Shown: piece after piece, positions 11,542 through 31,721 of the stretch
How positions within the stretch are numbered: position 1 is the first letter of the stretch
Layout of the letters: each line of letters starts with the position of its first letter
Origin: Desulfobacterales bacterium
GTDB taxonomy: Bacteria > Desulfobacterota > Desulfobacteria > Desulfobacterales > UBA2156
Assembly (NCBI GenBank): GCA_011049715.1
Contig: DRHF01000035.1
Span: forward strand, 1 to 54,698
Direction of reading: 5' to 3'
Length of the DNA: 54,698 bases
Program-made: the position numbers and the translations under genes
Notes under the pieces: model-generated
The model's input: the letters and a program-made list of their open reading frames with translations, nothing else
Told to the model about the DNA's origin: nothing
Database searches by the model: none

Positions 11542-13431
11542 TCAATTCAGATATTTTTGCATCCAAATCTCAAAAACCATCAGCGACCATAAACGATGAC
11601 TGTGGTTTTGAGTTCCATTTAAATGTTCGGCCTTTAATCTCTCAATGTATCTTTCATTAAAGAAACCTTCTCTTTTAATTTTGTTGGGTGAAAGAACATC
11701 CATCATCATCGGTTTAAGCTCGTTTTGCAGCCAGTTCTTAATTGGGATGCTAAAACCCTCTTTTCCTCGGGTTAATATCTCTTGAGGCAAAAGATCCTTC
11801 ATGGCTTGTTTTAATATCCATTTGGTTTTCAGGCCTTTTTGTTTTAAATGTCCCGGAAAGGATGAAATCAGTTCAACGAATCGATAATCCAAAAATGGGA
11901 CCCGCGTTTCCAAAGATGTTGACATACTCATTCGATCCACCTTCACCAGTATATTATCCGGAAGATACGTTTTAAGATCCACATAAAGCTGTTGATTTAA
12001 TGTATCACCTTGATCGTAATCCATCGCTTCATCGAAATATCGATAAATAAACTGATATTCTTCATCCATGGAGTTGCTCATCCTTAATTCCGGCGTATAG
12101 AGAAGCTCCTTTTCAGCATGCTTTAAAAAGACCATCCATCGCGTATGATGGAGGTTATGCGGTAACTGCATCCCTTCAAGAAACCGTTTTGTCCGGTTGA
12201 TGAACCCTTTTTTTTTCGATGACGGCCGGATCGATTCAAAAAGTTTCGCTATAATACCATCCTTAAGCATTTCAGGCAACTTGGTATAATAAGTGGCCAT
12301 TTTATCAGCGAGGTATGTATCATATCCAGCAAAGAGTTCATCTCCGCCATCTCCCGACAAAGCCACCTTCACATATTTATGGGCCATTTTTGACACCAGA
12401 TATGTCGGAAAGATGGAAAAATCGCCAAGCGGTTCATCCAAGTAATCCAGCAGTTTTTCGGTCAAACTCACGGCATCCGGTTTAACGATAAATTCATGGT
12501 GTTCGGTATTATATTTTTTAGCGATGAGTCTGGTATACTCCAATTCGTTATATGTTGAATCTTCAAATCCGATGGAAAACGTTTTAACCGGTTGATTCAT
12601 TTCCTGTGCCATGAGTGCGACAATGATGCTAGAATCGATTCCTCCACTAAGAAACACCCCAAGAGGCACATCACTCATAAGCTGAATTTTAACCGAGTCT
12701 TGAAGCAGTTCCCGGATAGATCTTTTGGATTCGATGAGATCATGGTGAAAATGATTATTCCTGATGCGCCAATATTGTTTGATGGAAATATTTCCATTTC
12801 GCATGATCATGGTGTGACCCGGCAGCAGTTTCTTAATCTTTTCAAAGATCGTGAGCGGCCCCGGAATATATTCAAAGGTTAAATAGTTATCCAGTGCCTG
12901 AAAATCGATTGCTCGAGGGATGCCTTCTATCTGCAAAATGGATTTGAGTTCAGAAGCGCAGATCAGTCGTTTCTGATCAAAATAATAGTAAAACGGTTTG
13001 ATTCCGATATGATCTCTCGATGCAAGCAGAAGATTTTTCTTTTGGTCCCAGATGATATAGGCGAACATGCCATTTAACTTTTTCGAGCAATCCTCTCCAT
13101 ACTCTTCATAGGCGTGTAGTATGGATTCGACATCTGACTTGGTTCTGAATGAGTGACCTTTTTTTTTCAGTTCCTCGCGCAATGTCATGTGATTATATAT
13201 TTCCCCATTGCACACGATCCATATGGACTCATCCTCATTGACAATGGGTTGGTTTCCTGTAACCAGATCGATAATACTGAGGCGGCGCATTCCCAATCCG
13301 GCATTTCTCTCAAACTTGATTCCCTCGTCATCAGGTCCGCGATGAACCATGGCCGAACACATTTTCTTCAGATTTTCTTGATCAACAAAATGATCTTTGC
13401 TGACATTAACGATGCCACAGATGCCACACAT
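11542..13431 (-). CDS. asnB: Asparagine synthase (glutamine-hydrolysing)-type amidotransferase
   Basis: 629 residues, the usual length. It begins MCGICGIVN, so Cys2 is the N-terminal glutaminase nucleophile, followed by MVHRGPDDEG, RRLSIIDL, and GEIYNH of the class II amidotransferase domain. The synthetase domain carries the ATP pyrophosphatase loop LSGGIDSSIIVALM and the downstream SGDGGDELFAGYD motif. AsnB homologues are frequent in exopolysaccharide clusters, where they are thought to amidate glycan carboxyl groups (for example uronic acids) instead of making free asparagine. Both readings are open. The gene starts five bases after the stop of a GT4 gene. Confidence 0.9.
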   Translation of the reverse strand: MCGICGIVNVSKDHFVDQENLKKMCSAMVHRGPDDEGIKFERNAGLGMRRLSIIDLVTGNQPIVNEDESIWIVCNGEIYNHMTLREELKKKGHSFRTKSDVESILHAYEEYGEDCSKKLNGMFAYIIWDQKKNLLLASRDHIGIKPFYYYFDQKRLICASELKSILQIEGIPRAIDFQALDNYLTFEYIPGPLTIFEKIKKLLPGHTMIMRNGNISIKQYWRIRNNHFHHDLIESKRSIRELLQDSVKIQLMSDVPLGVFLSGGIDSSIIVALMAQEMNQPVKTFSIGFEDSTYNELEYTRLIAKKYNTEHHEFIVKPDAVSLTEKLLDYLDEPLGDFSIFPTYLVSKMAHKYVKVALSGDGGDELFAGYDTYLADKMATYYTKLPEMLKDGIIAKLFESIRPSSKKKGFINRTKRFLEGMQLPHNLHHTRWMVFLKHAEKELLYTPELRMSNSMDEEYQFIYRYFDEAMDYDQGDTLNQQLYVDLKTYLPDNILVKVDRMSMSTSLETRVPFLDYRFVELISSFPGHLKQKGLKTKWILKQAMKDLLPQEILTRGKEGFSIPIKNWLQNELKPMMMDVLSPNKIKREGFFNERYIERLKAEHLNGTQNHSHRLWSLMVFEIWMQKYLN

Positions 13432-14658: not shown

Positions 14659-16764
14659 CTATTGATCAGAGTAATTTTCTGTGCGCAAAATCGGCTCTAT
14701 AACTGTTTTTCGGTTTATTGGAAAAATTAAACGACGATCTCTTATTTTCTCCCCATTGACCAACCAGTGTGAAAATTTGCTTTGGTGTTGACTCACAACT
14801 TTAATATCAATCGTTTCCCCCTTGAAATACCAGCCTTCATACCCGGGTTCTTCTGGATAACCATCGATTAAGAATTTGATTCCGTCCGGGCCGTTCACCT
14901 GACATCGTAAACTTTCACCAATACCATAAATGCCGTAGTATTTTCGAAGTTCATTCCTGATTTGATCGGGTCGTTTTTCAAAAAAATCTCTCATTAACAT
15001 ACTGTCGAAATAAGGTTCGGACCCAAACATGGCCTTTGATAGCTTTTCATAATGGTCCACACGCGACTTTAAAAATGATGAATTGATTTTGTGATTTAAA
15101 ATATCCATTAACAAACGAGAAAAGTATTTGTTGTATTCATGATCGTTGCTCATTAGATATTTGAAAATTTCCATTCTGAATTCATTCTGCCAGGTTAAAG
15201 GAAATCCGTTTTGCTGCCAGAGTTCTCCTGGCAAAGACCACCTTTTATGAGAAAAAAAAGAAACATCCATATCCCATAATATCCAGAACCATTTTGAATT
15301 CTCTTCTGTTTTATCGAGAACGACTGCCCCTTGTTCATAATCCCAATTACCGCAAAACACCGTTGCAATAATCCACCGCGACAGATTATCAACATCGATA
15401 TATTTTTTAACTTCTTGAAGTCGGATAATATTTTTATTTTTGAATCTTTCTTTTAACAGGTTGTAACGTGTTCTATCATCAAGGAGGTTGTCTTGTTTTT
15501 TTCCTAAACGAAGAAAAACAAAATCATCATGACCGATATGATTTGCCCATTGCCTCTCGCTTAAATGCTCGATAAGAAAATAAACGGTATCTGTCAGGCG
15601 TTTTCCGTTTAAAAGAAAAATGGCCGGCTTTATTTCAGGTGTCAACCCACCCATTGCTCGAGCGATATCGAAAGCAATGGCATTATTAAATCCAGGATTC
15701 GATCTATCGCTGGTAATGACCAGTCTCTTAATCGGATGAGTCCCAAAATCAAAAATAGTGCCGGGTAATAGCTCTTTCATTCCATATTTTCTTTTGAAAT
15801 ACAGTCTAAAGTTAATTCCAGCTTTTCGAGTACTTTTACCGTGTAACCGCAGACCGGCACTTGTCGCAAATATCAGTTTTCTGTTTTCGTAATACGATAC
15901 ATACGCCAGCCTCTCCCAATCCGCACCTTTTCTCCGCCAATTATAAATAATCCCTTTTTCTTTGCTATACAGATTGTCTTCATCTGTCACAATCGATATT
16001 AAAGAGACGCCATCTTTAAGATATTCTTCCTTAACAGCTTTACTGCTGGGAAATTCATCAGCCCCACCTCTGTTTTCAGTATATAAATATTCTCCCTCCT
16101 GACGCTTTTTTGGAAAAAGAAGCGTATGCAAAAAACGTTTTCGGGGAAAAATAAATACTTCCAGTTGGGCGTCATTTCCAAGTGTCATTAAAGAAAAACC
16201 TTCTTTACCGTGGGATATCTCCTGAATATCTTTTAGGGGTTTTAGCTTTTTAAAATCATTCGGCGTGGTAAAATGTATCGGTTTATACCCTTTTTGGGTT
16301 ATTAAAATACTTTTTAAAATAATCGTACTCGGTTTGTCCGCCGGATCGATTCGGAGCCTTTGAATAGATTTCAAATTTGATAAATACAAGTAATATATTT
16401 TTTTTTGATTGCGGATGTGAACAGTTGATGAGCGCTTTTCACCATACTCTCGATTGCTTTTGGCCCAATATATTTGAAACTTTGTATCATTGTTAGTTTC
16501 AATAGTTATCTTCACTTGAGCCATGTTTTGATAAAGCTGGTTTTCATTTGACTGAACGACTCGGGAGTTATTTACAGGAACCGTCTTTACGACGGAAAGT
16601 TGTTTTAATATATTTCCCAAGGACCCATAATCTAATATGCCCATTGGGACTGTTTGACGTCGTGCATTCTTTTTTAATGGATAAAAGTAGGATATTTCTT
16701 CAAGAAAAAAACCTCCTGCAAGAAAAAAAATCAATCCGATGATAACGAGTAAATATTTACGCAT
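14659..16764 (-). CDS. CotH-like kinase family protein, membrane-anchored
   Basis: 701 residues with an N-terminal membrane segment (LLVIIGLIFFLAGGFFLEE), a beta-rich region (~50-270), and the CotH domain (~300-590). Recognisable CotH pieces are GLRLHGKSTRKAGINFRLYF (the 'RG.S' strand), RSNPGFNNAIAFDIARAMG, and ILWDMDVSFF, matching the 'WD.D' metal-binding element of CotH kinases. CotH of spore formers is an atypical protein kinase. Here there are no sporulation genes, so another phosphorylation target outside the cytoplasm must be considered. It follows the VTC and DUF4956 genes in the arrangement known from other bacteria. C-terminal ~100 residues look like an additional beta domain. An A9 run lies near 16398-16406. 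Confidence 0.82.
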   Translation of the reverse strand: MRKYLLVIIGLIFFLAGGFFLEEISYFYPLKKNARRQTVPMGILDYGSLGNILKQLSVVKTVPVNNSRVVQSNENQLYQNMAQVKITIETNNDTKFQIYWAKSNREYGEKRSSTVHIRNQKKIYYLYLSNLKSIQRLRIDPADKPSTIILKSILITQKGYKPIHFTTPNDFKKLKPLKDIQEISHGKEGFSLMTLGNDAQLEVFIFPRKRFLHTLLFPKKRQEGEYLYTENRGGADEFPSSKAVKEEYLKDGVSLISIVTDEDNLYSKEKGIIYNWRRKGADWERLAYVSYYENRKLIFATSAGLRLHGKSTRKAGINFRLYFKRKYGMKELLPGTIFDFGTHPIKRLVITSDRSNPGFNNAIAFDIARAMGGLTPEIKPAIFLLNGKRLTDTVYFLIEHLSERQWANHIGHDDFVFLRLGKKQDNLLDDRTRYNLLKERFKNKNIIRLQEVKKYIDVDNLSRWIIATVFCGNWDYEQGAVVLDKTEENSKWFWILWDMDVSFFSHKRWSLPGELWQQNGFPLTWQNEFRMEIFKYLMSNDHEYNKYFSRLLMDILNHKINSSFLKSRVDHYEKLSKAMFGSEPYFDSMLMRDFFEKRPDQIRNELRKYYGIYGIGESLRCQVNGPDGIKFLIDGYPEEPGYEGWYFKGETIDIKVVSQHQSKFSHWLVNGEKIRDRRLIFPINRKTVIEPILRTENYSDQ

Positions 16765-16785
16765 AAAAAAAACTCTGGTTTTCTT

Positions 16786-17490
16786 TTATATATTCCCGGA
16801 ACTATTATAAAATAGATTTAATTTTACCTTGTTCGCGACACTTTGGATATTTTCTTGAAATTCAAGGTATGTCTTTACTCTCAATTTAGAAAAGGTGCAT
16901 GAAATGGTTGATTCGTTATCCCCTTCTGAAATACCATCGATTCTGCCTTTTGGCAGTTGTTTTTCGATGATATTCAAAATTCCGGCTTTTTTATTTTGAT
17001 ATTCTTCAGTTGGTATTTTGATAATTAACACTCCTGCGTTTGTCTTGATATTCCATATTCTATAACTAACTCTCATCAGAATCACTGCAATTACGGCAAT
17101 GAGTAGCGTAATTCCTAAGAAAAGGAAATTAAAGATCGCACTACTTATCGATGAAGCAATGATGAGCATGATAAATCCAATTTCTTCTGGTTCTTTAATT
17201 GGAGTTCGGAACCGCACGATTGATAGGGCGCCTAATAAACCTAAAGATAAGGGAAGTGAAAATTGAATACAAATGAATATCGCGGTGATTGAAATCGCCA
17301 ATAATGGAAAACTTCTATGAATCTTGCTTCCCGTTGCGGTTACATTGGAAAAATTTACGTAAAGAAATGATATGAAAAAAGCACTCAGCATTGATACGCC
17401 CAGTACAGCAAAAAAGGGGAAAAAACCGATTTCAGCCATTTTGGGATTTGAGAAACTGCTGAGCAGTTTCATTAATTCAATTTTGTCCAT
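16786..17490 (-). CDS. DUF4956 membrane protein
   Basis: 234 residues with about four membrane segments in the first 150 residues (FFPFFAVLGVSMLSAFFIS, LLAISITAIFICIQF, FIMLIIASSISSAIF, LGITLLIAVIAVILM). Between them is the signature stretch LLGALSIVRFRTPIKEPEEI that defines DUF4956. A soluble C-terminal domain of about 80 residues follows. The function is unknown, but this family is repeatedly found next to VTC-domain and CotH genes, as here (15 bases after VTC, 21 before CotH). I infer a shared pathway at the membrane. Confidence 0.85.
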   Translation of the reverse strand: MDKIELMKLLSSFSNPKMAEIGFFPFFAVLGVSMLSAFFISFLYVNFSNVTATGSKIHRSFPLLAISITAIFICIQFSLPLSLGLLGALSIVRFRTPIKEPEEIGFIMLIIASSISSAIFNFLFLGITLLIAVIAVILMRVSYRIWNIKTNAGVLIIKIPTEEYQNKKAGILNIIEKQLPKGRIDGISEGDNESTISCTFSKLRVKTYLEFQENIQSVANKVKLNLFYNSSGNI

Positions 17491-17504
17491 TTTTTTCTAC
17501 TCTT

Positions 17505-18194
17505 TCAATTGATGCGATTTGCTTCATTTAATTTTTGATAGCACCTGCAATACTTGGAAAAAGATTCTTTTTTACAGCCCAGTAACGTAAGCTTGTGTAC
17601 CAATTCAGGGAATTCATCGATTACGCCTTTCATTTCAAAAACGCCGTTTTCCAAGTATAACGGGTTTGCTTTTGGAAACACTAACCCATTAACCTTTGGT
17701 GTCGAAATATCACAGTCAAGACAGAATCGCATTCCGGTCACTGGCTCTACAAATCTCCATCTTTTATAACTTATCTGAAAAACAGGAAATATGTTGTCAG
17801 GAATCATTTCTCCCATGGATCGAAAAGTTGAGATGATGCGAAAGAATTTTTCGTTATTTAAATCTGCTTCGGACAGAAATTTTCCCGAAATATCGCTTTT
17901 TTTTCTTATTTTTTTTCTTGTAGAACCGATCTTTTTTTTTATCTCGATAAATGAATAACCCCCTGGTTCAATTTTTTCATTCTCCGAATACCATCTTATT
18001 CGAAATTTTAATTTGAAGTAATCGCTATTGATTTTTTCCTCTAAAAAGCGCCAATCCCTCGTATCAAAATAAATACTCGAAATAATACCATACGGATATA
18101 TTGGGTCCGGTAAAAGGCGGTTTTTTACCCAATCGAGGATTAAATGAGATTTATTATTATTAAAGATAAACTTGATTTCATAACTCATCAGCAT
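17505..18194 (-). CDS. VTC-domain protein (polyphosphate polymerase-like)
   Basis: 229 residues. It begins SYEIKFIF, a typical opening, then IISSIYFDTRDWRF, FKLKFRIRWYSE (the 'K.R.R' basic strand) and YSFIEIKKKIGSTRKKIRKK (Glu plus Lys/Arg strand). Later it has KRWRFVEPVTGMRFCLDCDIS and ends with ELVHKLTLLGCKKESFSKY. These are the tunnel-fold strands of the VTC domain, whose basic residues bind triphosphate or polyphosphate. Yeast Vtc4 makes polyphosphate from ATP; the bacterial versions linked to DUF4956 and CotH have no settled function. The key charged residues look retained, so catalytic activity is plausible. The first gene of the cassette; two ATGs, codons 1 and 3, are possible starts. 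Confidence 0.85.
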   Translation of the reverse strand: MLMSYEIKFIFNNNKSHLILDWVKNRLLPDPIYPYGIISSIYFDTRDWRFLEEKINSDYFKLKFRIRWYSENEKIEPGGYSFIEIKKKIGSTRKKIRKKSDISGKFLSEADLNNEKFFRIISTFRSMGEMIPDNIFPVFQISYKRWRFVEPVTGMRFCLDCDISTPKVNGLVFPKANPLYLENGVFEMKGVIDEFPELVHKLTLLGCKKESFSKYCRCYQKLNEANRIN

Positions 18195-18297: not shown

Positions 18298-20427
18298 TTA
18301 AGCGATCAATTTGGCGTTCTTATTGTTTTTGCGGCTTATTATATTATGCAGGTAGACCCATCCAAATCCTGGAAAAAGAATGACAAAAGCGCTTCCAAAA
18401 AAGAGTTTCATCCATGAAGAGATGTTAACAATGAATTGGACATACCAGGTAACTGGATAAAGAAAAACTCTCACCATTACTTTTAACACTTCATGATCTC
18501 TGATAAATTTTGCCGCTACAGGTGATTTTTTATAATAAAAACTTACGAATTTCTTTCCCAAAGTATTTGTTAATAAATACCTGTCTCTGAATGTTCTTAA
18601 AGCGACCACATGCGGTTCAAGCGAAGAGCCAAAAGCAGCTGTGGCAATGAAGCAGGCTTTTTTCGAAGGTTTTTCCAGCGTCTTAAATGACATAATATTT
18701 CCATTTTTCTTTATAAAATCATTTTCAGCCACCAATCGATAGTAATAGATGCTGTTGTCGGAAAAATTACCAACGCTAATACTGACTGAAACCTCACCCT
18801 TTCTATCTCCTACGTTTTCTGTATTTGTCTGGGTCCCGAAATCCGGTGTTTCCCCAAATTCAAAGAAATATCTCGTGGAATATCCCTTTAAATTAATACG
18901 ACCGTTCATTACGACAGAAGTCTCATCTATTTCACTTGCATCAAGCGTTACCACCGTCAGCTCTGGGAGCGCATCATACCAAGCCTGTGCCATAACTTTG
19001 TACCCGGCTATATTGGGATGTAATCCGTCATCTGTCAAGGAAGGCCAATTGGATATGGTTGCAGCATATTGATCAGCCAACGCACAATTTTTCCGTAAAG
19101 CCAAATCTTTAATCCGGGGGTTATAGTCGGCCGGAATATTATTCTTAGGGGACTTGGTATCCGGTGTTAGGGTCGCAATGATCGGAATGACATTAAATGC
19201 ACGGCTTTTATCGATCATTTGGCCTAAAAAATAAAGCGTTGAATCAACCGAAATGCCATAGTAGATGAGATCGTTAGTTCCCTCCAAAATCAAAACATAC
19301 TTCGCATTGTGTTTGCCAAGCGTCTGGTTTCCTAACCGGCTCAATCCCGCCGCTGACGATTCTCCCCCAAAACCATAATTTAACACTTTCGTGTTCCAAC
19401 CTAAAACCCGCCGCGTTATTGCTTCTAAATCAGGCTCATACCCGCCGATACGTCTGCCGGCTCCCGCGTCTGCCACATATGGGATGCCCTGAGTAATACT
19501 ATCGCCATATCCGATAATGGTTTTTCCATCGGATTGTATCTCAATTTGTTTTTGAAGGATATCGAGATTATTGTCATCTTCGCTTTCTTCCATGACTTCG
19601 CGTATTCGAAAAGTCGACCTTTCCCCATTACTTTTGATATGGATCGTCGCAAGTTTCTGACTTCCGACAAATTCAGGCAGATCAGAAATTAAATACTCGG
19701 AAATACTTATAAGAGATTGATTTATATTCTCTATGTCTTCAATAAGCTCTTCTGACCACTTTGAACCAGTCCACCTGCTGATATAACTTTTAGATTCTTT
19801 TCCGTCATATCCAGACCATTTTACCCATGGCAAATTGTTTTGCCCAATTTTGATGACCGGAATAATATCGGGTGTTGTGTTATCCATATTCACCATTGAG
19901 GGGGAATCCCACCCAAACCCGTTCCACCGGGTAAAATAGATATCGTCATCCTCTTCGTCAAAGCCCGCCCAGACAATCCAGGGAACATTATTGTTATCGA
20001 CCACAACAGAGGGAGCTGTGTTTGACGAAAAACCGGTCGATATCATCTCGGGAATCGACCAATTTTCACCGTCAAACACAGAGTAGTAAAGATCGCTTAT
20101 AGATCCCTGAGCGGCAAACCAGACCACCCAAATGGTTCCGTCGATTCCGGAGCCAACACTTGGAAGAAGATCCATTGCCCTATGATTCGATAATTTCGTT
20201 TTAGCGCTCCATTGACCGTTTCTAAGGCTGCTAAAATAAATTTCATAATCCTCTGTTTCAACCTCGGACCAGACCAGGTCGGCTTCTATGTTTTCTATGG
20301 GTTCTGAATTTACTAAATTAATACCACCATCCATCATAATGCCGAAAATATATAAAATGGATAATAGAAAAAAGGGCACCCATTTTCGATGTTGATGTCT
20401 CACCTTATGTTTTTCCTTCTTTATCAA
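18298..20427 (-). CDS. Secreted SGNH hydrolase with propeller-like N-terminus and CFI-box C-terminus
   Basis: 709 residues, apparently from a TTG (20427). A signal-type segment (WVPFFLLSILYIFGIMM) leads into four short repeats with 'W..(A/S)G.D......(Y/F).R(W/F)' texture (~45-220), like a small beta-propeller. The SGNH domain (~300-500) has IIGYGDSITQGIP, LNYGFGGESSAAG, LILEGTNDLIYYG and DDGLHPNIAGYKVM, so all catalytic blocks are present. A fibronectin-like stretch follows (RYFFEFGETPDFGTQT). The last ~110 residues begin CFIATAAFGSSLEPHV and continue LRTFRDRYLLTNTLGKKFV, the CFI-box C-terminal domain, with a final membrane segment and basic tail. That domain is thought to mark surface proteins for processing or anchoring. 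It directly precedes VTC-DUF4956-CotH. Confidence 0.82.
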   Translation of the reverse strand: MIKKEKHKVRHQHRKWVPFFLLSILYIFGIMMDGGINLVNSEPIENIEADLVWSEVETEDYEIYFSSLRNGQWSAKTKLSNHRAMDLLPSVGSGIDGTIWVVWFAAQGSISDLYYSVFDGENWSIPEMISTGFSSNTAPSVVVDNNNVPWIVWAGFDEEDDDIYFTRWNGFGWDSPSMVNMDNTTPDIIPVIKIGQNNLPWVKWSGYDGKESKSYISRWTGSKWSEELIEDIENINQSLISISEYLISDLPEFVGSQKLATIHIKSNGERSTFRIREVMEESEDDNNLDILQKQIEIQSDGKTIIGYGDSITQGIPYVADAGAGRRIGGYEPDLEAITRRVLGWNTKVLNYGFGGESSAAGLSRLGNQTLGKHNAKYVLILEGTNDLIYYGISVDSTLYFLGQMIDKSRAFNVIPIIATLTPDTKSPKNNIPADYNPRIKDLALRKNCALADQYAATISNWPSLTDDGLHPNIAGYKVMAQAWYDALPELTVVTLDASEIDETSVVMNGRINLKGYSTRYFFEFGETPDFGTQTNTENVGDRKGEVSVSISVGNFSDNSIYYYRLVAENDFIKKNGNIMSFKTLEKPSKKACFIATAAFGSSLEPHVVALRTFRDRYLLTNTLGKKFVSFYYKKSPVAAKFIRDHEVLKVMVRVFLYPVTWYVQFIVNISSWMKLFFGSAFVILFPGFGWVYLHNIISRKNNKNAKLIA

Positions 20428-20462: not shown

Positions 20463-23400
20463 TTAATCAGTGATCTTGGATTTTTTCTTTAATGTAAAGT
20501 CTTCTGCTTCAGTGGTCAAGTTCGGATTGTAATAGGGATCACCCATTGTTAATATTTTCTTCCACTTTTTTTGAAAATAGTGAATTTCCCTTTGAAATCG
20601 GATTTTTTGTTCCGGTGTTTCCTCATAGCCTCTTGAGACTGATTCATGATGAATGGCCTCACAATAAGGTGTAAAAATATTTAAAAAGCCCCTTTCTCTC
20701 AATCTTAGACAAAAGTCAATGTCATTCAATGCGACGGGTAAATGATCTTCATCCAATCCTCCGATTTCTTCGTACAATCTTTTTTTCACCATCAACAGAG
20801 CGCCCGACACAGCGCTAACATTCTGGGTGCACATTAACCGGTTTGAATAACCGCTTTCATCCCGTTTAGAATGCCGGTGAGAATGGCCGGCAAACCCAGC
20901 GATCCCAATAATTACCCCTGCATGTTGAATGGTATGATTCGGGTAGTACAGTTTTCCACTGACCGCACCCACCTCTTGTCGTTGGGAGTGCTCGAGCAGG
21001 GATTCGATCCAGTCGGAATGGGTGATTTCCACGTCGTTGTTCAACAACAGAATCGTTTCTGCTTCTGTCAAAGACACCCCGTAATTATTGATCTTCGAAT
21101 AATTAAAGGGAATGTCGTACTCAAAAAACTTGACTCGCGAATCGGCGGCCTTCAATTTGGACATCCAATCGAAAGTTTCATTTTCCTGGCTGCCATTGCT
21201 GATGCCGATGATCTCAAAATTCGAATAGGTCGTTTTTTTCAAGATGCTCTGGATGCATCTTCTCAAATACTCCGGCTGGTCCCTGAAAGGGATGATGATG
21301 GCCACTTGCGGCTCGTTCACGATCCTTCGTTTCACACGGTAAAAAAACGGGCGGTTTGCCTTCAGGACAGTTCCATCAATTTCGCGGCGTCTTAAAGCGG
21401 CTTCTATCGCCCGCTTTCCTGAGTCGTCGGCATAATGTTTGGTTTCGGGGTTGAAACTGGTTGATGTGGAGGCCTTCCTCCATAAGTATAGCACCTTGGG
21501 GATATGATGGATCCGTTCCGTCCTCTCGATGATCTTTAAAATCAGATCATAATCCTGCGCACCATCACAACTGGATGAAAAACCACCTACTCCATCAAAG
21601 AGGTGTTTTTTTACGATGAGCAGATGGGTGATGTAATTATGAGAAAATAAGAGGTCGGGCGAGAAATTAGGCTTGTGGATCGGATCGAGATATCTCCCTC
21701 CCTCATCGATCAGGGATTCATCGGAATAAATAAAATCGGGATCTTCTTTATCGATTGCGTTAACCACTTCGAACAATGCATCCATCGTTAGAACGTCGTC
21801 ATGATCTAAAAATCCAATATATTCCCCGGTTGCATGGGAAGCGGCTTGGTTTGAGGCGGCTGAGATTCCATTGGTTTTATCCGAAAAGAATATCCTGATC
21901 CTTTCATCTTTTGCGGCATATTCACTCAGTATTTCTTTGACATGTCTTCTCGTGCTTCCATCATCGGTAATACACAATTCCCAATTGGTGTAAATCTGGC
22001 GCCTTACGGAGTCGAGCGTCTCATGAAGGGTGCGATCCTCGGTGTTATATACGGGTGTGATGATGCTGATTTTGGGTTTGAATCGAAACCGCTCTAACTG
22101 GGGATTGGCAATTCTTCTTTCTGAAATGCCGGATTCGAGATAATGCGATAAAGGATTGATGCCGGTTTTAGCCACATCCGGGTTTTGGTCCAGATAAAAG
22201 CCGGTGTCGAACAGCTCGCTCGTCGATTTTTTTCTCTTTGCTCCAATTGTTAAATAGTGCTCGAGTGTCGTCATCCCTTCTTTGGCGACATCGGGATTAT
22301 GGTTCATATAAAAGGCGGAATCAAATAGCGGATTCGGATCTCGGTACTCACTTGAGCTGGTTTGGATGTAATGTGAAAGTGGGTTCACACCCTCTTCATC
22401 GACGTCTCCGTTTTTATCCAGATAATATGACGAATCGAAAAGCGGGTTGGGGTCACACCCTCTTTTTGCACCGATCAGGAGATAGTGCTCCAGCGGCGTC
22501 ATGCCGGACAATTCGGCTTCATGAGCATGTGCCAAATAATATGACGAATCGAAAAGCGGGTTGGGATTTCGCCCTTCTTTTGCCCCGATTCGGAGGTAGT
22601 GCTCCAACGGCGTCATACCGGTCGATTCAACATCCGAGCACTGTTCCAGGTAATAGGGCGTATCGAATAATGGATGGGGGTCATGCCCCTCCTCTGTACC
22701 GGCTTCAAGGTAGTTGGCGAGCGGATTGATGCCGAGCGGTATCAAATCCGGGTTTTGCGCGAGATAGTACGAACTGCTGAATAATGGATGGGGATCACGC
22801 CCCTCCTTTGCTCCGATTTCAAGGTAATGGGCCAATGGATTGATTCCAAGCTTCCTGACATCCAAATTCTGAGAAAGATAATATGAGGGGTCAAATAAAG
22901 GGTTCGGCTTTAGGCCTCTTTGAATGCCGATTGTCATGAAATGGGCAAGTGGGTTTAGACCCGATTCCTCGACATTCTCGTTATTGGCGAAATAATACAT
23001 CGTGTAAAACAATGGATTTGGATTTTTATTTTCTCCAACTCCGGTTTGAATATAGTGTACTAACGGATTTATACCCGCTTTGGCGATGTCGGGATTTTGG
23101 TCTAGATAATAGGAAGTATCAAACAATGGGTTGGGGGACCGGCCTTCTTTTGCACCTATCCAAAGATAGTGGGTTATGGGATTTAGATTCGCATCCTTCA
23201 CATCTGGATTTCGTTCAAAGTAATATTTGATATCGAATAAGCCCGAATTCTGAATCAATATCAACCATCGATTTATATAATAATAAGCAGTCCTGAGCGC
23301 ATGGGTTAATACCCTGGCATGCACTGTCATCGATCGGACCGGTGCTGTCAATTTCCAAGATTTTGAATTTAAAAGATCAGTCCGAAAAAGCGTTTCGGCA

Positions 23401-23954
23401 ACAAAATTTTGCTTTAATACATCCAACTCCTGTTGAAGCTGATGTACTTTCTTATCTTTCTTTTGAATCTCTATGTCCTGTTTCGATAATTTCTTTTTTA
23501 GGTCATCGTTTTTTTCCAAATACACATGAATCTGGTGATCATATTCCTTTATCGTTTTACTAGTGCATTTAAAAATACAATTAAATGCCTCTTTTCCGAT
23601 AGCTTCATACCTCAACGAAAAAAGAATCCGATCGACCCGGCTGTTGATTATATTGATAGATATTTGCGGATTTCTTGTCGAAAAAATGAAAAGGTCATTC
23701 TCTTGATATGCAGCGTTGGTCGAAAAGACATCCAGACAATATCGACTCTCATCCGGTCTGAAAATCTCGATTTGTTTTATCTGCAGAACCAAATAATCAT
23801 TTAAGGGGTGAAGCTGCAGTGCCCGGATGCGGTCAAAGGTTTCCAGATAAAATTCAAGCTGTTCTTCCCCGCCCCTGATCTGGCAGGACAAACCCTTGTT
23901 TTCGTTAAACCCGTTTCCCGTATCGATATCAAGATGTGCTTCTAGTTTATACAT
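20463..23954 (-). CDS. Giant modular glycosyltransferase: beta module, ten 38-residue repeats, two GT2 domains
   Basis: 1163 residues. Order: a beta module (~3-130, DIDTGNGFNE ... LHPLNDYLVLQI); a coiled coil (~140-190); the linker NSKSWKLTAPVRSM; ten tandem 38-residue repeats (237-616); and two GT2 domains. GT2-I (~625-850) has SIITPVYNTE and FLDHDDVLT (DxD type). GT2-II (~880-1130) has AIIIPFRDQPEYL and LLLNNDVEI. Tandem GT2 domains are usually processive or add two sugars in turn. No membrane segment is visible, so it should work at the cytoplasmic face. Its ATG overlaps the stop of the 1571-residue gene by eight bases (ATGTATAA). Substrates are unknown. Repeat function is not established; I infer scaffolding or binding of glycan or partner proteins. 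Confidence 0.87.
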   Translation of the reverse strand: MYKLEAHLDIDTGNGFNENKGLSCQIRGGEEQLEFYLETFDRIRALQLHPLNDYLVLQIKQIEIFRPDESRYCLDVFSTNAAYQENDLFIFSTRNPQISINIINSRVDRILFSLRYEAIGKEAFNCIFKCTSKTIKEYDHQIHVYLEKNDDLKKKLSKQDIEIQKKDKKVHQLQQELDVLKQNFVAETLFRTDLLNSKSWKLTAPVRSMTVHARVLTHALRTAYYYINRWLILIQNSGLFDIKYYFERNPDVKDANLNPITHYLWIGAKEGRSPNPLFDTSYYLDQNPDIAKAGINPLVHYIQTGVGENKNPNPLFYTMYYFANNENVEESGLNPLAHFMTIGIQRGLKPNPLFDPSYYLSQNLDVRKLGINPLAHYLEIGAKEGRDPHPLFSSSYYLAQNPDLIPLGINPLANYLEAGTEEGHDPHPLFDTPYYLEQCSDVESTGMTPLEHYLRIGAKEGRNPNPLFDSSYYLAHAHEAELSGMTPLEHYLLIGAKRGCDPNPLFDSSYYLDKNGDVDEEGVNPLSHYIQTSSSEYRDPNPLFDSAFYMNHNPDVAKEGMTTLEHYLTIGAKRKKSTSELFDTGFYLDQNPDVAKTGINPLSHYLESGISERRIANPQLERFRFKPKISIITPVYNTEDRTLHETLDSVRRQIYTNWELCITDDGSTRRHVKEILSEYAAKDERIRIFFSDKTNGISAASNQAASHATGEYIGFLDHDDVLTMDALFEVVNAIDKEDPDFIYSDESLIDEGGRYLDPIHKPNFSPDLLFSHNYITHLLIVKKHLFDGVGGFSSSCDGAQDYDLILKIIERTERIHHIPKVLYLWRKASTSTSFNPETKHYADDSGKRAIEAALRRREIDGTVLKANRPFFYRVKRRIVNEPQVAIIIPFRDQPEYLRRCIQSILKKTTYSNFEIIGISNGSQENETFDWMSKLKAADSRVKFFEYDIPFNYSKINNYGVSLTEAETILLLNNDVEITHSDWIESLLEHSQRQEVGAVSGKLYYPNHTIQHAGVIIGIAGFAGHSHRHSKRDESGYSNRLMCTQNVSAVSGALLMVKKRLYEEIGGLDEDHLPVALNDIDFCLRLRERGFLNIFTPYCEAIHHESVSRGYEETPEQKIRFQREIHYFQKKWKKILTMGDPYYNPNLTTEAEDFTLKKKSKITD
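22107..23246 (-). repeat. Ten in-frame tandem 114-bp repeats
   Basis: Ten units of exactly 38 codons without spacer in the 1163-residue glycosyltransferase. The consensus is N-P-L-F-D-x-x-Y-Y-L-x-x-N-P-D-V, then a short variable part, then N-P-L-x-H-Y-L-x-x-G-A-K-E-G-R-D-P. The Tyr-Tyr, Asn-Pro-Asp and His-Tyr positions hold best. Units 6 and 7 share TPLEHYL instead of NPLAHYL. Unit 7 has lost the NPDV core. The units are less alike at DNA level than those in the neighbouring gene. Confidence 0.9.
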
Positions 23955-26900
23955 ATAACCGCTTGGGTATCCTCAAAATCCTCTCCGGTTTGGTTTGGCT
24001 GATAAATTTGAGCAGAAAATGATAATCATAAGGCCCTTCATGTTCTTTGTTGAGCCCCCCGATAGCATCAATAATCGATTTTCTGAACAGAATGGATCGA
24101 CCGACGAAATAATCCATTGTCAGCAAAAGATCCGGCCGCACATAGTCAACGATTCTATACCCGTTTATATCCGAGTCATGATCAGAAAATATGAGGTCTG
24201 CTTCGGGGTTCTGATTTAACAGATCGACGTATTCATACAGGGCATTATATTTTAGATCAGAACCATTTAAAAACAGCATAAATTCACCTGCTGAGATGGA
24301 TATCCCCTTGTTGGCGCTTATTGCATGCCCCTGCCTTTCATCAAATACCGCGACTCTGACCCTTTGATCTTTTTTCTCATAGTCTAACAAAATGGACTGG
24401 ATTCCTTCATGCTTGTTGCCGTCGTCTATCAAAACCAATTCGAAATGATCATAGATCTGCGTTAAGACAGAACGTATGCGTTCATCGAGCGCTATTTCCT
24501 TGATGTCATGCAGACAAAAAATGACGCTGATAAGCGGACGAAATGGAAAACTCTTAATAAACGGATTTGGATCTTTCCCTTCTTTTGCACCCACCAACAA
24601 ATAATGCTGCAGGGGGTTCATCTCCGATGCCGCGACATCCGGATTCTGTTCCAGGTAATAGGCGGTATCGAACAAGGGGCCCGGATCCCTCCTTTCAGTA
24701 CCGCCAATCTCAATATAGTGAGCCAATGGATTCATGCCCATTTTAATGACATCGGGATTGCTTTTAAGATAATATAAGCTTGAAAATAATGGATTCGGAT
24801 CTCTTCCTTCTTCAGCGCCATATTCCAGATAATGGGCCAGCGGATTCACTCCAGATGACGCAACATCCGGATTCTCGCTTAAATAGTATCCTGTGTGAAA
24901 TAACGGGTTCGGATTTTTTCCCTCTTTCGCACCGTATTCCAGATAGTGGGCCAATGGATTCATCTCAGATTCCGCAACATCCGGATTCTCGCTTAAATAG
25001 TATCCTGTGTGAAACAATGGGTTCGGATTTTTTCCCTCTTTCGCACCAACGGTTAAATAGTGTTCCAAGGGATTGGTTTTAGACTTCAAAACATCAGGAT
25101 TTCTTGTCACATAATACAGCACATCGAATATTGCACATGGGTTTCTCATTTCATCTGCACCAGCTTCCAAAAAATGAGCCAGGGGATTTTGGCCCGATTC
25201 CCGGACTTCCGGATTTTTAGAAAGATAATAGGTGCTGGAAAACAGCGGATTCGGATCCCGTCCCTCATCCGAGCCGACCCTAATATAATGAACAAGAGAA
25301 TTCTGGCCCGATTCCCGGACTTCCGGATTTTTTAAAAAATAATAGGTGCTGGAAAACAGCGGGTTCGGATCCCGACCCTCTTCCGAGCCAATCGTCAGAT
25401 AATGCTCCAGCGGGCTCAGCCCCGTTGCCAACACATCCGGATTTCTGGATACATAAAAGGCTGTTTCAAAAAGCGGACAAGGGTTTTTCTTCTCACCGGT
25501 TCCATATTTCAGGAAATGAGCCAGGGGATTCTGGCCCGATTCCCGGACTTCCGGATTATTAAAAAGATAATAGGCGGTGGAAAACAGCGGATTCGGATCC
25601 CGATCCTCATCCGCGCCGATCGTCAGATAATGCTCCAGCGGACTCAGCCCCGTTGCCAACACATCCGGATTCTTGGATACATAAAAGGCTGTGTTAAAAA
25701 GCGGACCCGGATCCCTCCCCTCAACCGATCCGGTATCGATAAAGTGGACCAATGGATTCATCCCAGCGCTGGACACATCCGGGTTTTTTAAAAGATAATA
25801 GGCGGTGGAAAACAGCGGATTCGGATCCCGTCCCTCATCCGCACCGATCGTCAGATAGTGCTCCAGCGGGTTCGTTTCTGATTTCAGCACATCCGGATTC
25901 TTGGATAAATAGTATGCTGTGTTAAAGAATGGGTTCGGATTTTTCTCTTCCTTTGCACCAATGACAATGTAGTGTTCCAGTGGATTCATTCCAGATGCTG
26001 ACACATCCGGATTCTTGGATAAATAGTATGCTGTGTCAAAAAGCGGACCCGGATTTAAATTGTTAACCACCCCTCTTTTAATGAAGTGTATGATCGGATC
26101 TTTGCAGGACAAGTCAACATCCGGATTTTGACGCAAATAATAAGATATATCAAACAGACAACTATGTTTGATAATTTCATAGGTTCGATCCAAACGAAAT
26201 GTCATTATCTTTCTAACAGTATTTCTGAAGAGTAAAATAATCGTCTTTTTTAGTTTTTTGAACACCTTCCAAGGCAGCGTTTGTTTAATCGTTTCAAAAG
26301 ATCGAAAAACCTTTTGATTTCTTCTCTCCAACTCAACTATTTGAATGCGATCTTGATAACGATTTATCCTATTGCTTTCGATTTGTTTGGATTGCTGTTC
26401 AATCTGTTTAAATTGCTGTTCAATCTGTTTTTGTCGTCTGCTGATTTTTTGTTTCAATTCCCAAATTTTATTTAAATAATCGGTACGGTTCTTCTCCTGC
26501 AAGGCTTTCATTCTTGCTAGTGTTTTTCCGGCTGAGAAGTATTCGATCGCTGCCGGCCACTCAATCATCACGTCGAAAAAAAGAGGTCCTTTTCTCAAAT
26601 CCAAACCATTTAGCGCCGGCAGTTCAAAATCCATATAGGGTTCGTTGCTGGTTGATAAAAATACGTTTCCATATATATTTTTTTGGAACAGGACGTCTTC
26701 CATGTTTGCCGATTCGGCAATTTGATCTGCATCATCTAACCTGAACAGGATCTGTTCTTCGTCATTCTTAATATCCATCCACTTTAGCGTTGCATGAAAC
26801 AGGTTGAAAAAACCCGGTCGATTCATCGGTTTAAGTCTTAACCGCTTCAAATTCTTATCGGGATTGTAGAAAATAAATAAAAGCTTCTGTGGCCCTCTTC

Positions 26901-28662
26901 CCAGCGGAGTGAACGCATATACGCTTTTATTTTCAAAATACCTTTGCCCATCACCGGCCCAGAACAGTTGTGCCGAGTTTATATGCGTTTGTTTGTCTAA
27001 GCTCCAGAACTGGAACGGCTCTTCTATCATTCGCTTAATATTATTGATGCCTTTTTGAAAATAAATCTCTGTTTGAAACCGTTCTTCAGTATCAATAAAG
27101 TTGTTAAGATTCTTCATTAAGGGCAAAGAAAGAATGCTGAAACCGTATTCGATAAATTCTAAAATATTGCCGATGCCCTTCAATTCGCAAAGTCGTTTTA
27201 ATAGAGGCCCGCTGATTTTGGGAAACCACAACAGCGTCCTGAAAAGAACATTTTCCGGGCTGACTGATTCAGCAAATAACCATTCAGAATCTATCGCCGT
27301 GTATGACCCCTTGTCGTCTACAATGATGTTAAACGGCAAGATATCGATGGCGTTATTTGGATCATGATGTTTTTGATAAAACTGTAAAATAAAATTGTAA
27401 TATTTTTTAATCAGCGCTTCGAATTCAGAGGTGCTGTCACATTCAACCACAGATTTCAGCCACAGTGTGGAGAGCAGGTCACCTCTAATATATTTTTGAT
27501 TTGAAAGGTCCTGCCTGATATCAGTATCACTAAAATTGTCATCTTTATCATCTGATAGACTTCTTTTAACAATGTACTTCTGGTTGCGAGGTTTTCTCGT
27601 TAATGTTCTGTATCTCGGTTTTCGATCAAGATCCGGAAAAACGACAAAATCATTTTCAAACACCTCATTCAGTCGAACTGCCGAGTCGGATCCAATGATA
27701 AAAAACGAATTTGCAAACTGTTCCAAATATCCGGTCTGGTGAAGCGCTCTCCAAATCAAAAATTCATTTGCATCCGGCTGCCATGGATTAAAGTAATCCT
27801 TCGCCATTACACGGAAAAGCACGGAATGCGCATGGCTGTCATTTTGGATGTAAGTATCCGATAAAACAACCTTGGAAAATTGGTAATCCGGAAATGGGTA
27901 GATAAATCGATGTTTTCGGATCATTGCTTTTTGAAGGAAATCATCCCATTCCTTTTTATCAAAGGATCTGATCCCCTTATCCTGTAAATATCCGTATAAT
28001 CCGGTATATGGGCGCCGATAGTGGTTGTCGGATGCACCTAACCAATATTTGAGACCCATCCGGTTATCTCCGGCAATAAACAGCAAACCATCTTTTCGAA
28101 GCGATGCTGTTGCTTTGGAAAGCATCTCAACCACGGCATTTTTATCATCGATTGTTGGTTTGAGATACTTTTTTGCATATTCCACTGTTCCCATTAAAAA
28201 AACCGCATCGTAGGTGTCTTGAGGGAGTTTTAGATTGCAAAACAGTGCATTTACTATTTCAACATGTTTTAGATCGCGACATCGAAGCCGAGCAATTTCG
28301 GTTTTTTGAGGCGAAGCTTCTACAGCATCCACGCGTATGTTTTGCTCTCCCAAATAGCGTGTCAGCGTTCCGCAACCACATTCGATTTCCAGCGCGTTCC
28401 TGATGCCTTTAAGATTAAGACTTTGAAATATGTTTGTCCGCCTGGGGCTGAAATAGTATTCAGATAGCCAATTGTGATCGATTAATCTTTTTTCCAGTTC
28501 AATGGAGTTCGAGGTGACGTCCTGTAACCCCGTCATCATCTGTCGCAATGGTTCATACGGGATATCGTTATCGGTTTTATCCGAGATTTCATAGCCATCA
28601 ATAAACCATACACACGAACTCTTTTGGATTAGCGGGTTTGTTTCAAGTAATGGAAAAACCAT
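23947..28662 (-). CDS. Giant modular protein: methyltransferase, beta module, fourteen 38-residue repeats, GT2 domain
   Basis: 1571 residues. The N-terminal SAM methyltransferase has motif I ALEIECGCGTLTRYL (~90-104), VDAVEASPQK, and YDAVFLMGTVEYAKKY. A middle region (~240-550) includes FNIIVDDKGSYTAIDSEW, reminiscent of aminoglycoside-phosphotransferase-like folds, though I cannot confirm that. A beta module follows (~560-690, QLFWAGDGQRYF ... RLRLKPMNRPG), then a coiled coil with QIEQQ heptads (~715-785), a TLPWKVFKKLKK linker, and fourteen repeats (834-1365). The C-terminal GT2 domain (~1375-1571) has LISVIFCLHD and LFLNGSDLKYN in place of a clean DxD, and stops at IPKRLYV, the end of domain I in the neighbour. 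It is possibly a weakened or non-catalytic transferase. Cytoplasmic. Substrates unknown. Confidence 0.85.
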   Translation of the reverse strand: MVFPLLETNPLIQKSSCVWFIDGYEISDKTDNDIPYEPLRQMMTGLQDVTSNSIELEKRLIDHNWLSEYYFSPRRTNIFQSLNLKGIRNALEIECGCGTLTRYLGEQNIRVDAVEASPQKTEIARLRCRDLKHVEIVNALFCNLKLPQDTYDAVFLMGTVEYAKKYLKPTIDDKNAVVEMLSKATASLRKDGLLFIAGDNRMGLKYWLGASDNHYRRPYTGLYGYLQDKGIRSFDKKEWDDFLQKAMIRKHRFIYPFPDYQFSKVVLSDTYIQNDSHAHSVLFRVMAKDYFNPWQPDANEFLIWRALHQTGYLEQFANSFFIIGSDSAVRLNEVFENDFVVFPDLDRKPRYRTLTRKPRNQKYIVKRSLSDDKDDNFSDTDIRQDLSNQKYIRGDLLSTLWLKSVVECDSTSEFEALIKKYYNFILQFYQKHHDPNNAIDILPFNIIVDDKGSYTAIDSEWLFAESVSPENVLFRTLLWFPKISGPLLKRLCELKGIGNILEFIEYGFSILSLPLMKNLNNFIDTEERFQTEIYFQKGINNIKRMIEEPFQFWSLDKQTHINSAQLFWAGDGQRYFENKSVYAFTPLGRGPQKLLFIFYNPDKNLKRLRLKPMNRPGFFNLFHATLKWMDIKNDEEQILFRLDDADQIAESANMEDVLFQKNIYGNVFLSTSNEPYMDFELPALNGLDLRKGPLFFDVMIEWPAAIEYFSAGKTLARMKALQEKNRTDYLNKIWELKQKISRRQKQIEQQFKQIEQQSKQIESNRINRYQDRIQIVELERRNQKVFRSFETIKQTLPWKVFKKLKKTIILLFRNTVRKIMTFRLDRTYEIIKHSCLFDISYYLRQNPDVDLSCKDPIIHFIKRGVVNNLNPGPLFDTAYYLSKNPDVSASGMNPLEHYIVIGAKEEKNPNPFFNTAYYLSKNPDVLKSETNPLEHYLTIGADEGRDPNPLFSTAYYLLKNPDVSSAGMNPLVHFIDTGSVEGRDPGPLFNTAFYVSKNPDVLATGLSPLEHYLTIGADEDRDPNPLFSTAYYLFNNPEVRESGQNPLAHFLKYGTGEKKNPCPLFETAFYVSRNPDVLATGLSPLEHYLTIGSEEGRDPNPLFSSTYYFLKNPEVRESGQNSLVHYIRVGSDEGRDPNPLFSSTYYLSKNPEVRESGQNPLAHFLEAGADEMRNPCAIFDVLYYVTRNPDVLKSKTNPLEHYLTVGAKEGKNPNPLFHTGYYLSENPDVAESEMNPLAHYLEYGAKEGKNPNPLFHTGYYLSENPDVASSGVNPLAHYLEYGAEEGRDPNPLFSSLYYLKSNPDVIKMGMNPLAHYIEIGGTERRDPGPLFDTAYYLEQNPDVAASEMNPLQHYLLVGAKEGKDPNPFIKSFPFRPLISVIFCLHDIKEIALDERIRSVLTQIYDHFELVLIDDGNKHEGIQSILLDYEKKDQRVRVAVFDERQGHAISANKGISISAGEFMLFLNGSDLKYNALYEYVDLLNQNPEADLIFSDHDSDINGYRIVDYVRPDLLLTMDYFVGRSILFRKSIIDAIGGLNKEHEGPYDYHFLLKFISQTKPERILRIPKRLYV
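24568..26163 (-). repeat. Fourteen in-frame tandem 114-bp repeats
   Basis: Fourteen units of 38 codons in the 1571-residue protein, same family as the array in the next gene. Several units are nearly identical in DNA. Units 11 and 12 (about 24800-25030) share long exact stretches. Units 5-6 and 7-8 form a duplicated two-unit block, with VLATGLSPLEHYLTIG in units 5 and 7 and NPEVRESGQN in units 6 and 8. Unit 9 repeats NPEVRESGQN again. This points to recent unequal crossing-over. Confidence 0.9.
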
Positions 28663-29621: not shown

Positions 29622-31721
29622 CTAAGTTCTTTTCTCTGCAATGATAATATCCTGACCGTGTATCTCTCCTTTTCTATTGCACCATGTTCCATAGTGTATC
29701 GCACCTTTGATAGACAGATTAGCGGCTTTAAATAATTCCCGGAAAAACGACTCTTCATAAGCAATAGCTGCTTCTGGGTTTTCTATAATCATCACGCCAT
29801 ACCGTTTATCGATCAGTTTGAAGTTAAACTCGCTTGAGCTCATATATGTTTTTGAATCTTGCTTCAACAGAAAACAAGAGATGAACACCCGTCCGCCTGG
29901 TTTTAAAACACGATAAATCTCATTTAAATAATGGGATGCCGCATCGGGCAGTATGTGGGTAAATACAGAAGCGGCAAAAGCAAAATCAAAAAAGCCGGCT
30001 GTATATGGAAACACGAATTCAGTAGCTTCGATTGTTCCATTTTTATTGTATTCTTTGTTGTAAATATTGGCGTGTTGAAAACAGAAAACGGGACTTTGTT
30101 TAGTCAATTTTTGATTGCACCACTTGACGCCTCTTTCCACAATTTCAAATCCTTCATATCGGCCTTCATTATTGAGATAATCCATAAAATGGACTGCAAC
30201 CCGGCCGATACCGGATCCGATATCGAGTATCTTATCGCTCTCTTTTACGCCACAAAAGTTGATGATGTTATCGAAATAAAGTTTACCAATTTTAACAAAT
30301 TCGATCCCTCCAACATAGTTGAATCTTTGTGGCGGAATTGGATCCTTCTTCAGATAGCAAAAGTAAAAAAAGGAAATTTCATCTATAATAGCTTTTTTTC
30401 TTTCAACGCCAATAAATCTCATCACTTTCTTGAGCTTACCAAATATCCACCTTAACGGAAATGTGATTTTCCATGCGGTTGAGCTGACCACTTCCTGATA
30501 ACGTTTTTCCCACGAATTAATACAGCCATCCACTGCGTATGATTGTATTTCTTGTTGGTGTATAGATACATCTTTTTTTTGCTGATCGTTACATTCGCCA
30601 ATCTGTTTTTTCTGAGATATGAGTTCGTTTTGATAATTGATAATATAAGTCAGAGCCGCTTTTCCGGTTGTGATAAAATTCAGCTTAATAGTTACCTTTT
30701 TTATTTTCCTGTTAGGAACCTCAAAATACACCCGCGGATCATTACTAAGGAAAATAAAGTTTTGGTCTTGTCGATAGGCCGCATTGGTCTCGATATTTTC
30801 AATTTTATGCCACGATCTATCATCAAACTGAATTGAAATCTTTTCGATATGAATGACACAAAAATCATTGATCGGGTCAAATCGCAATCCTTTAATTTTC
30901 CCGGTCTCATTCAGATCAAACTCGATCTGTTTTCCCGAGCCAAAGATGACTTTTTTAATCACTTTCTGGTTGTTAAAACCAAATCCCGTGTCAATGTATA
31001 GCTGTGTCACTTTAGGAACGATATATATCTCTGCACAATCTTTGAATAATTGACGATGATTGAAGATGACGTTTTTGATCATAAAGAATGGTGCTTCTTC
31101 TGACATGGTATTTAACATGGACGTTTTCTTTATTCTGTAATAAAAAAGGGTTTTGGGAATTCGATATGGTTTTAAATTGAGTTCAAGCAGAGAAAGCCAA
31201 AAGTCCCAATCCTCCAATCCATAAACCATATTGGTGTTGTATCCTTTCACTCTTTCCCAATCTCTTTTTCTAAAAAAACCTGAACAAAAAATAATATTCT
31301 TTTTCAATATCCCTTCTAAGGAAAACTCAGGCAAATCGATCAAGCCATCTTTATCTCCGAAATAAGAGGCCTGGCAATATACAATCCCAATATCCGGATT
31401 TTCATCCAGTATCTTAACAGCGATGTCTGTATATTCCGATCCGATTTTATCATCAGCATCTAGGGGAAGAACGTATTCCCCTTTTGCTTCTTTAATGCCA
31501 TTGTTTCTGGCCGAGGCTAAACCTTGATTATCGGTGTGAATAATCCTTGTTTTCGGCTTGTTATAATCTGCCAAAATCAGCCTTGTTTTTTCGTCATCTG
31601 ATCCATCGTCAACAATGATAATCTCGAAATTCTGCCAGGTCTGATTTAACACCGATTCAACCGCCTCGTTTAGATACTGGCCGTGGTTATAACAGGGAAT
31701 GATGACGCTGACTTTAGGCAT
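29622..31721 (-). CDS. Modular GT2 glycosyltransferase with beta module and SAM methyltransferase
   Basis: 699 residues. GT2 domain (1-220): KVSVIIPCYNHGQYL, IIVDDGSDDE, YVLPLDADDKIG (DxD) and NMVYGLEDWDFWLSL (the catalytic-base 'ED' motif). A beta module follows (~235-365, TQLYIDTGFGFNN ... RFDPINDFCVIHI). Then a charged helix with Gln-rich turns and the linker SSTAWKITFPLRWIFGKLKK. The C-terminal methyltransferase (~480-690) has ILDIGSGIGRVAVHF (motif I) and VLKPGGRVFISCF. I infer sugar transfer followed by methylation of the product, for instance chain capping; that is not shown. The ATG overlaps the fcl stop by eight bases (ATGCCTAA). Confidence 0.88.
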   Translation of the reverse strand: MPKVSVIIPCYNHGQYLNEAVESVLNQTWQNFEIIIVDDGSDDEKTRLILADYNKPKTRIIHTDNQGLASARNNGIKEAKGEYVLPLDADDKIGSEYTDIAVKILDENPDIGIVYCQASYFGDKDGLIDLPEFSLEGILKKNIIFCSGFFRKRDWERVKGYNTNMVYGLEDWDFWLSLLELNLKPYRIPKTLFYYRIKKTSMLNTMSEEAPFFMIKNVIFNHRQLFKDCAEIYIVPKVTQLYIDTGFGFNNQKVIKKVIFGSGKQIEFDLNETGKIKGLRFDPINDFCVIHIEKISIQFDDRSWHKIENIETNAAYRQDQNFIFLSNDPRVYFEVPNRKIKKVTIKLNFITTGKAALTYIINYQNELISQKKQIGECNDQQKKDVSIHQQEIQSYAVDGCINSWEKRYQEVVSSTAWKITFPLRWIFGKLKKVMRFIGVERKKAIIDEISFFYFCYLKKDPIPPQRFNYVGGIEFVKIGKLYFDNIINFCGVKESDKILDIGSGIGRVAVHFMDYLNNEGRYEGFEIVERGVKWCNQKLTKQSPVFCFQHANIYNKEYNKNGTIEATEFVFPYTAGFFDFAFAASVFTHILPDAASHYLNEIYRVLKPGGRVFISCFLLKQDSKTYMSSSEFNFKLIDKRYGVMIIENPEAAIAYEESFFRELFKAANLSIKGAIHYGTWCNRKGEIHGQDIIIAEKRT

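Follow-up and report, generated by a model that had tools for sequence, protein, structure and literature searches.

Arrays of an unnamed 38-residue repeat in a putative chain terminator and an adjacent putative polymerase for surface polysaccharide

Introduction

Two neighbouring genes in the window, by which we mean the whole 54,698-nt stretch of desulfobacterial DNA analysed here, encode large proteins that carry long tandem arrays of one 38-residue repeat. The locus raises the question of what these two proteins are and what the arrays do in them. A preliminary, sequence-only reading took the pair for two giant glycosyltransferases and proposed that the arrays serve as a scaffold or a ruler. 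In the following, all features lie on the minus strand and coordinates are positions in the window.

Results

Two arrays in overlapping genes

The genes for P0002 (1571 aa, 23947..28662) and P0001 (1163 aa, 20463..23954) overlap by 8 bases. P0002 carries 14 consecutive units (residues 836-1367, 24562..26157), delimited by unit spacing and unit profile, and P0001 carries ten (residues 239-618, 22101..23240), delimited by spacing and predicted structure; both arrays are ungapped and every spacing is 38 residues. The sequence-only reading had described long arrays of exactly 38 residues, without spacers, in two neighbouring and overlapping genes, and all of this was borne out; the span it gave, 22107-26163, does contain arrays, with coordinates shifted by 6 bases. 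A profile (A1) built from the 24 units of P0002 and P0001 recovered all 24 at E values of 1e-16 to 3e-23 and matched only one other place in the 5.4 Mb draft genome, weakly (E 5e-5), which excludes a chance origin of the arrays. The underlying 114-base (38-codon) period was also detected by Tandem Repeats Finder.

Structure prediction, named earlier as a check, gave a confident fold for the P0001 array rather than disorder (AlphaFold2, pLDDT about 90), each unit forming three short helices (about 7, 5 and 9 residues long) and a paired bridge. The consensus of 477 units from other genomes is LFDTAWYLEQNPDVAAAGINPLVHYLRHGAAEGRDPHP, with strong conservation of His24 and of the aromatic residues at positions 2, 6, 7 and 25. 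The alpha-solenoid repeats represented in Pfam, among them TPR and Sel1, likewise string together short helical units of about this length, but they differ from the 38-residue unit with its three short modelled helices. No Pfam repeat family matched P0001, P0002 or the unit consensus, and when Pfam, NCBIfam, PHROGs and PDB were searched with the unit, all matches were at chance level (B12D, NTP_transf_5, phytase). A literature search found no paper on a 38-residue repeat of this kind, nor did we find a curated family that includes it or a structure or function assigned to it. The repeat is real, unnamed, widespread (see below) and, according to its model, folded.

P0001 resembles a two-enzyme chain polymerase

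P0001 is a putative polymerase with six successive parts. A beta-sandwich-like domain (residues 1-120, 23595..23954), its strands modelled at pLDDT about 50-85, is followed by a predicted coiled-coil helix (residues 121-194, 23373..23594) and, directly ahead of the array, by a basic helix that is a candidate membrane contact on the strength of the model and the charge average (residues 205-237, 23244..23342). Downstream of the array lie a first GT2 domain with an intact DHDD motif (residues 626-830, 21465..22079; Pfam and alignment) and a second with the motif LNND (residues 880-1130, 20565..21317; Pfam and model), corresponding to two PF00535 stretches in the Pfam search. The best Foldseek matches of the P0001 model were chondroitin polymerase K4CP (2z86) and heparosan synthase 2 (8vh7), at about 16% identity, and they argue for a two-enzyme chain polymerase; K4CP was also matched with phmmer. 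Like P0001, both enzymes have tandem GT2 modules, and the matches listed for the whole model were to GT domains. To our knowledge, K4CP and heparosan synthase 2 lack the sandwich, the coiled coil and the array. With its two intact GT2 domains, P0001 alone of the pair looks like a working glycosyltransferase.

P0002 is most likely a chain terminator with a degenerate GT2

To call both proteins glycosyltransferases was correct for P0001 and not for P0002, whose N-terminal half is methyltransferase and kinase-like and whose GT2 is degenerate; the sequence-only reading recognised neither the putative terminator, with what is left of its GT2, nor the wide occurrence of the repeat. The first 560 residues of P0002 belong to a family (alignment A4) that combines a methyltransferase core with a second domain bearing the signature D-x-x-P-x-N ... 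D-x-E-W. The SAM-dependent methyltransferase core (residues 88-222, 27997..28401) was assigned by Pfam (PF13649, E 3e-8; PF08241), with Glu94 replacing the first Gly of the SAM motif. In the kinase-like domain (residues 296-545, 27028..27777), D440, P443, N445, D458, E460 and W461 are invariant across 7 homologues; a profile search of the PDB gave no match. A beta-rich, carbohydrate-binding-module-like domain comes next (residues 564-702, 26557..26973; strands in a low-confidence model), and then a coiled coil (residues 711-795, 26278..26532), indicated by a long helix in the low-confidence model and by a heptad-sized 21-bp tandem repeat at 26371-26430 (Tandem Repeats Finder). The predicted N-terminal structure was derived from two sequences and is of low confidence (pLDDT 38).

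The array leads directly into a truncated GT2 (residues 1368-1571, 23950..24561) that ends after 'RLYV', where P0001 starts. It has lost both Asp of the DxD motif (NGSD), E746 and D803 (each His) and H817 (Arg), whereas 56 of 65 distinct homologues keep all three motif Asp. Truncated and deprived of catalytic residues that most homologues retain, this domain is very probably inactive. Both arrays do sit between a coiled coil and GT2 sequence, as had been read, with the correction that P0002 has one truncated GT2. From domain order and signatures, P0002 is most likely a chain terminator that would phosphorylate and methylate the chain end. Many of its homologues among the terminators extend no farther than the coiled coil, so that active GT2 modules in the same protein are not obligatory for this type.

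Comparison with known terminator-polymerase systems

ORF6 of Klebsiella pneumoniae O7 comprises a methyltransferase, a kinase (catalytic D441), a CBM, a coiled coil and two GT2 domains, and performs methyl-phosphate capping (PMC11231755). Its order of methyltransferase, kinase-like domain, sandwich and coiled coil recurs in P0002, whose kinase-like domain and sandwich are putative, with GT2 downstream of the coiled coil, and its D441, Y66 and E112 correspond to D440, Y69 and E115 of P0002 by comparison of published residue numbers only. The kinase assignment draws on the signature and on these numbers. Because ORF6 was compared by residue numbers only and the P0002 model reaches just pLDDT 38, the kinase activity is putative. 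ORF6-O7 unites terminator and GT2-GT2 in one protein, whereas here the active GT2 pair is in P0001 and P0002 has a dead stub; no 38-residue array has been described in ORF6-O7, in contrast to the 14 units of P0002. WbdD and WbdA of E. coli O9a, like P0002 and P0001, divide terminator and dual-GT polymerase between two proteins and include a coiled coil and a membrane-proximal region (PMC5082667, PMC3482155); unlike P0002/P0001, they are described without mention of a repeat array in the portions of these two papers available to us. P0002 was also considered as a sequence homologue of WbdD and this was rejected, with no WbdD chain among the PDB matches listed. In terminator-polymerase proteins the coiled coil acts as a length ruler (PMC11231755, PMC5082667), as demonstrated for WbdD.

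The Wzm/Wzt ABC transporter expected in the cluster of an ORF6-O7-type terminator is represented beside P0002 relatives (Wzm and Wzt in locus L066, Wzt in L168, L181 and L182) but is absent from the window; no wzm or wzt was found within its 54,698 nt. Two Wzt_C proteins are encoded elsewhere in the same draft genome, on contigs C247 and C343. L066 encodes, in order, Wzm, Wzt, a terminator that extends no farther than its coiled coil, and a protein resembling P0001 whose array has 2 units. In L168 (genome G216), Wzt adjoins a terminator-coiled coil-GT2-GT2 protein with 0 units. In L181 (G402), Wzt is followed by a 1749-aa protein with no obvious long coiled coil, in which nine units (seven by profile and two by eye) lie between the methyltransferase-kinase terminator and GT2-GT2. 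L182 (G554) has Wzt and then a terminator with a short coiled coil, eight units and no GT. The L181 and L182 genomes also encode array-bearing GT2-GT2 proteins.

Distribution and companion domains of the repeat

A scan for relatives of the repeat found it in Pseudomonadota, in desulfobacterial and other deltaproteobacterial genomes, and in Acidobacteria, Verrucomicrobia, Cyanobacteria, Chloroflexi and Melainabacteria; across several phyla, surface-polysaccharide enzymes carry between 1 and 23 units in array. In a viral collection the repeat had few relatives, all weak, and the terminator had none. The unit length is nearly constant, 375 spacings in the relatives' loci being exactly 38 and the second commonest value occurring 9 times. 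Copy number per protein has a median of 4 and a maximum of 23. At least 10 units are present in 12 of 98 proteins and further adjacent pairs of array genes exist (four in the surveyed loci and two in L213 and L214), so neither long arrays nor adjacent array genes are unique to this locus.

GT2 domains occur in 29 of the 41 array proteins scanned and a GT4-type model matched 12 of the 41; methyltransferase, WbsX, WsaF, RgpF and sulfotransferase domains were also found. The array has a defined place in the architecture, which had been proposed as a check: in homologues with a GT2 pair it lies mostly directly ahead of GT2-GT2. Arrays were not enriched near Wzt over array-less GT2-GT2 controls (24/78 versus 8/20, p=0.44), and the array is thus not confined to the Wzt pathway. 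It is a general accessory of surface-polysaccharide enzymes of this kind. The 30 residues preceding the arrays have a mean charge of +3.5, compared with -0.5 in random segments (84 proteins), which suggests a membrane-surface helix and a candidate membrane contact; we liken it to the membrane-proximal region of WbdD (PMC5082667).

Evolution of unit number

Arrays change by duplication of whole units. Units 5 and 7 of P0002 are identical at 104 of 114 bases, and units 3-7 are nearly identical in a same-genus relative (G001, Desulfobacteraceae UBA2156). In the closest, measurable unit pairs dN < dS, consistent with constraint on the unit sequence. The P0001 orthologue of G001 is 53% identical, has the same downstream gene and likewise carries 10 units; a one-to-one match between the units of the two proteins was not significant (p=0.087). 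Eight GT2-GT2 cores that are 63, 61, 59, 58, 57, 57, 56 and 54% identical to that of P0001 are accompanied by 2, 10, 6, 0, 0, 0, 0 and 0 units, respectively. With 0, 2, 6 or 10 units on cores 53-63% identical, the array is an optional insert ahead of the polymerase.

Discussion

We propose, giving it an even chance, that P0002 as terminator and P0001 as polymerase belong to a single system of surface-polysaccharide assembly, with the arrays as a spacer and docking solenoid. Chains would be made in the cytoplasm by the two GT2 enzymes at the C-terminus of P0001 and then capped, in the methyl-phosphate manner, by the enzymes at the N-terminus of P0002. Each protein would run from a coiled coil through a basic helix into a solenoid of 38-residue units, an optional spacer and docking surface adjustable unit by unit, and the solenoid would fix the position of the GT2 part with respect to both membrane helix and terminator. 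P0002 keeps 14 units and only a dead GT2 stub, so its array probably acts in trans, as a dock that joins the terminator either to itself or to the polymerase. A spacer and docking solenoid would explain the placements in P0001-type proteins and in L181 as well as the arrays of P0002 and L182, which have no active GT in cis. Number and spacing of the units, their predicted fold, their placement, distribution and variable copy number, the order of domains, the conserved signatures and the catalytic losses in the GT2 of P0002 are all established computationally; terminator activity, contact with the membrane and the role as spacer or dock are inferences. Of the two roles first suggested, that of scaffold or spacer is the better supported by the confident fold and the place before GT2-GT2; a ruler is known for the coiled coil, and that role is unproven for the array. 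Several observations speak against this proposal: the window without wzm or wzt, an array no more frequent near Wzt than in controls, a kinase assignment drawn from a signature and published residue numbers with no PDB profile match and a model at pLDDT 38, and the Glu94 substitution in the SAM motif.

The array could instead be a platform for protein-protein docking in general, on which multi-enzyme polysaccharide complexes assemble and which has no part in termination, an idea with a lesser but real chance. It accompanies GT2, GT4, WbsX, WsaF, RgpF, methyltransferase and sulfotransferase domains and is not enriched near Wzt, P0002 and L182 keep it in the absence of an active GT in cis, and adjacent array-bearing genes recur; the same data, however, fit a pure spacer. 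We consider it unlikely that the array acts as a molecular ruler of its own, in place of the coiled coil or as an extension of it, with the number of units fixing how far the capping enzyme lies from the polymerase and thereby how long the glycan becomes. Such a role would agree with the L181 protein, whose nine units occupy the place of the Klebsiella O7 coiled-coil ruler between terminator and GT2-GT2, with the change of unit count by whole units, and with the ten units shared by P0001 and its 53%-identical orthologue, even though these do not correspond one to one. Against this, the P0001 and P0002 arrays come after the coiled coil as well as after the helix presumed to touch the membrane, on the polymerase side, so that, unlike the coiled coil of WbdD, they would not move the terminator farther from the membrane; moreover, unit number ranges from 0 to 10 among similar polymerases, and the conserved ten is a single pair.

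That the tail of P0002, array and GT2 stub together, is decaying and functionless debris of a gene fusion would account for the truncation and lost catalytic residues of its GT2 and for homologous terminators that often stop after the coiled coil. The 14 units and 204 further codons are nevertheless open and in register, the array units have dN < dS and two other terminators (L181 and L182) also carry arrays, and we regard decay as quite unlikely. Binding of the growing glycan or its lipid carrier by a carbohydrate-binding repeat is improbable: its strongly conserved aromatic residues and His24 would suit such a role, but the aromatics could equally pack the helices, and our searches found no relative of the repeat with known sugar binding.

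What is new from the window is a putative terminator-polymerase pair in which both members carry the array. It ties the repeat to a terminator-polymerase system with a proven coiled-coil length ruler, and thereby to a concrete, testable role. There is a small chance that the array is a second kind of glycan ruler, an alpha-solenoid of 38-residue units that takes the place of the terminator-polymerase coiled coil or supplements it, with a copy number that would tune chain length as whole units are gained and lost. Closely similar polymerases with 0, 2, 6 and 10 units offer a ready-made natural experiment.

Features of the polysaccharide cluster

The window encodes a third large protein beside the putative polymerase P0001 and the putative chain terminator P0002. 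This protein (window 29622-31721) comprises a GT2 domain, a sandwich domain resembling the one in P0001, a methyltransferase and, probably, a coiled coil, and is without an array of 38-residue units. A GDSL-lipase-type gene (window 18298-20427) is next after P0001 both in the window and in the same-genus relative (Desulfobacteraceae UBA2156), and represents a retained flanking gene. The polysaccharide cluster also holds neighbouring genes for CotH, DUF4956 and VTC-domain proteins (window 14659-18194).

Within the coiled coil of P0002, a 21-base tandem repeat of 2.9 copies (window 26371-26430) duplicates one heptad (KQIEQQ..), indicating that the coiled coil, like the array, varies in length by whole structural units. 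P0002 also differs from most relatives at residue 94 (window 28381-28383), where glutamate replaces the first glycine of the SAM-binding motif (LEIECGCG); judging from this substitution, its methyltransferase may be weakened.

Arrays in other genomes

The longest arrays observed, of 23 and 20 units, were found in purple sulfur bacteria (loci L098 and L062; Thiospirillum, Rhabdochromatium), in proteins each exceeding 2000 residues. Looser relatives of the unit, spaced at 42-60 residues, occur at loci L040 and L042 in other proteins, one of them large and repetitive, the other probably carrying a signal peptide, suggesting that the reach of the unit may extend past glycosyltransferases. At locus L181, a 1749-aa protein adjoining Wzt (6312-11558, minus strand) runs as a single chain from the terminator through nine repeat units to GT2-GT2, and provides the cleanest natural case for asking whether the array acts as a ruler.
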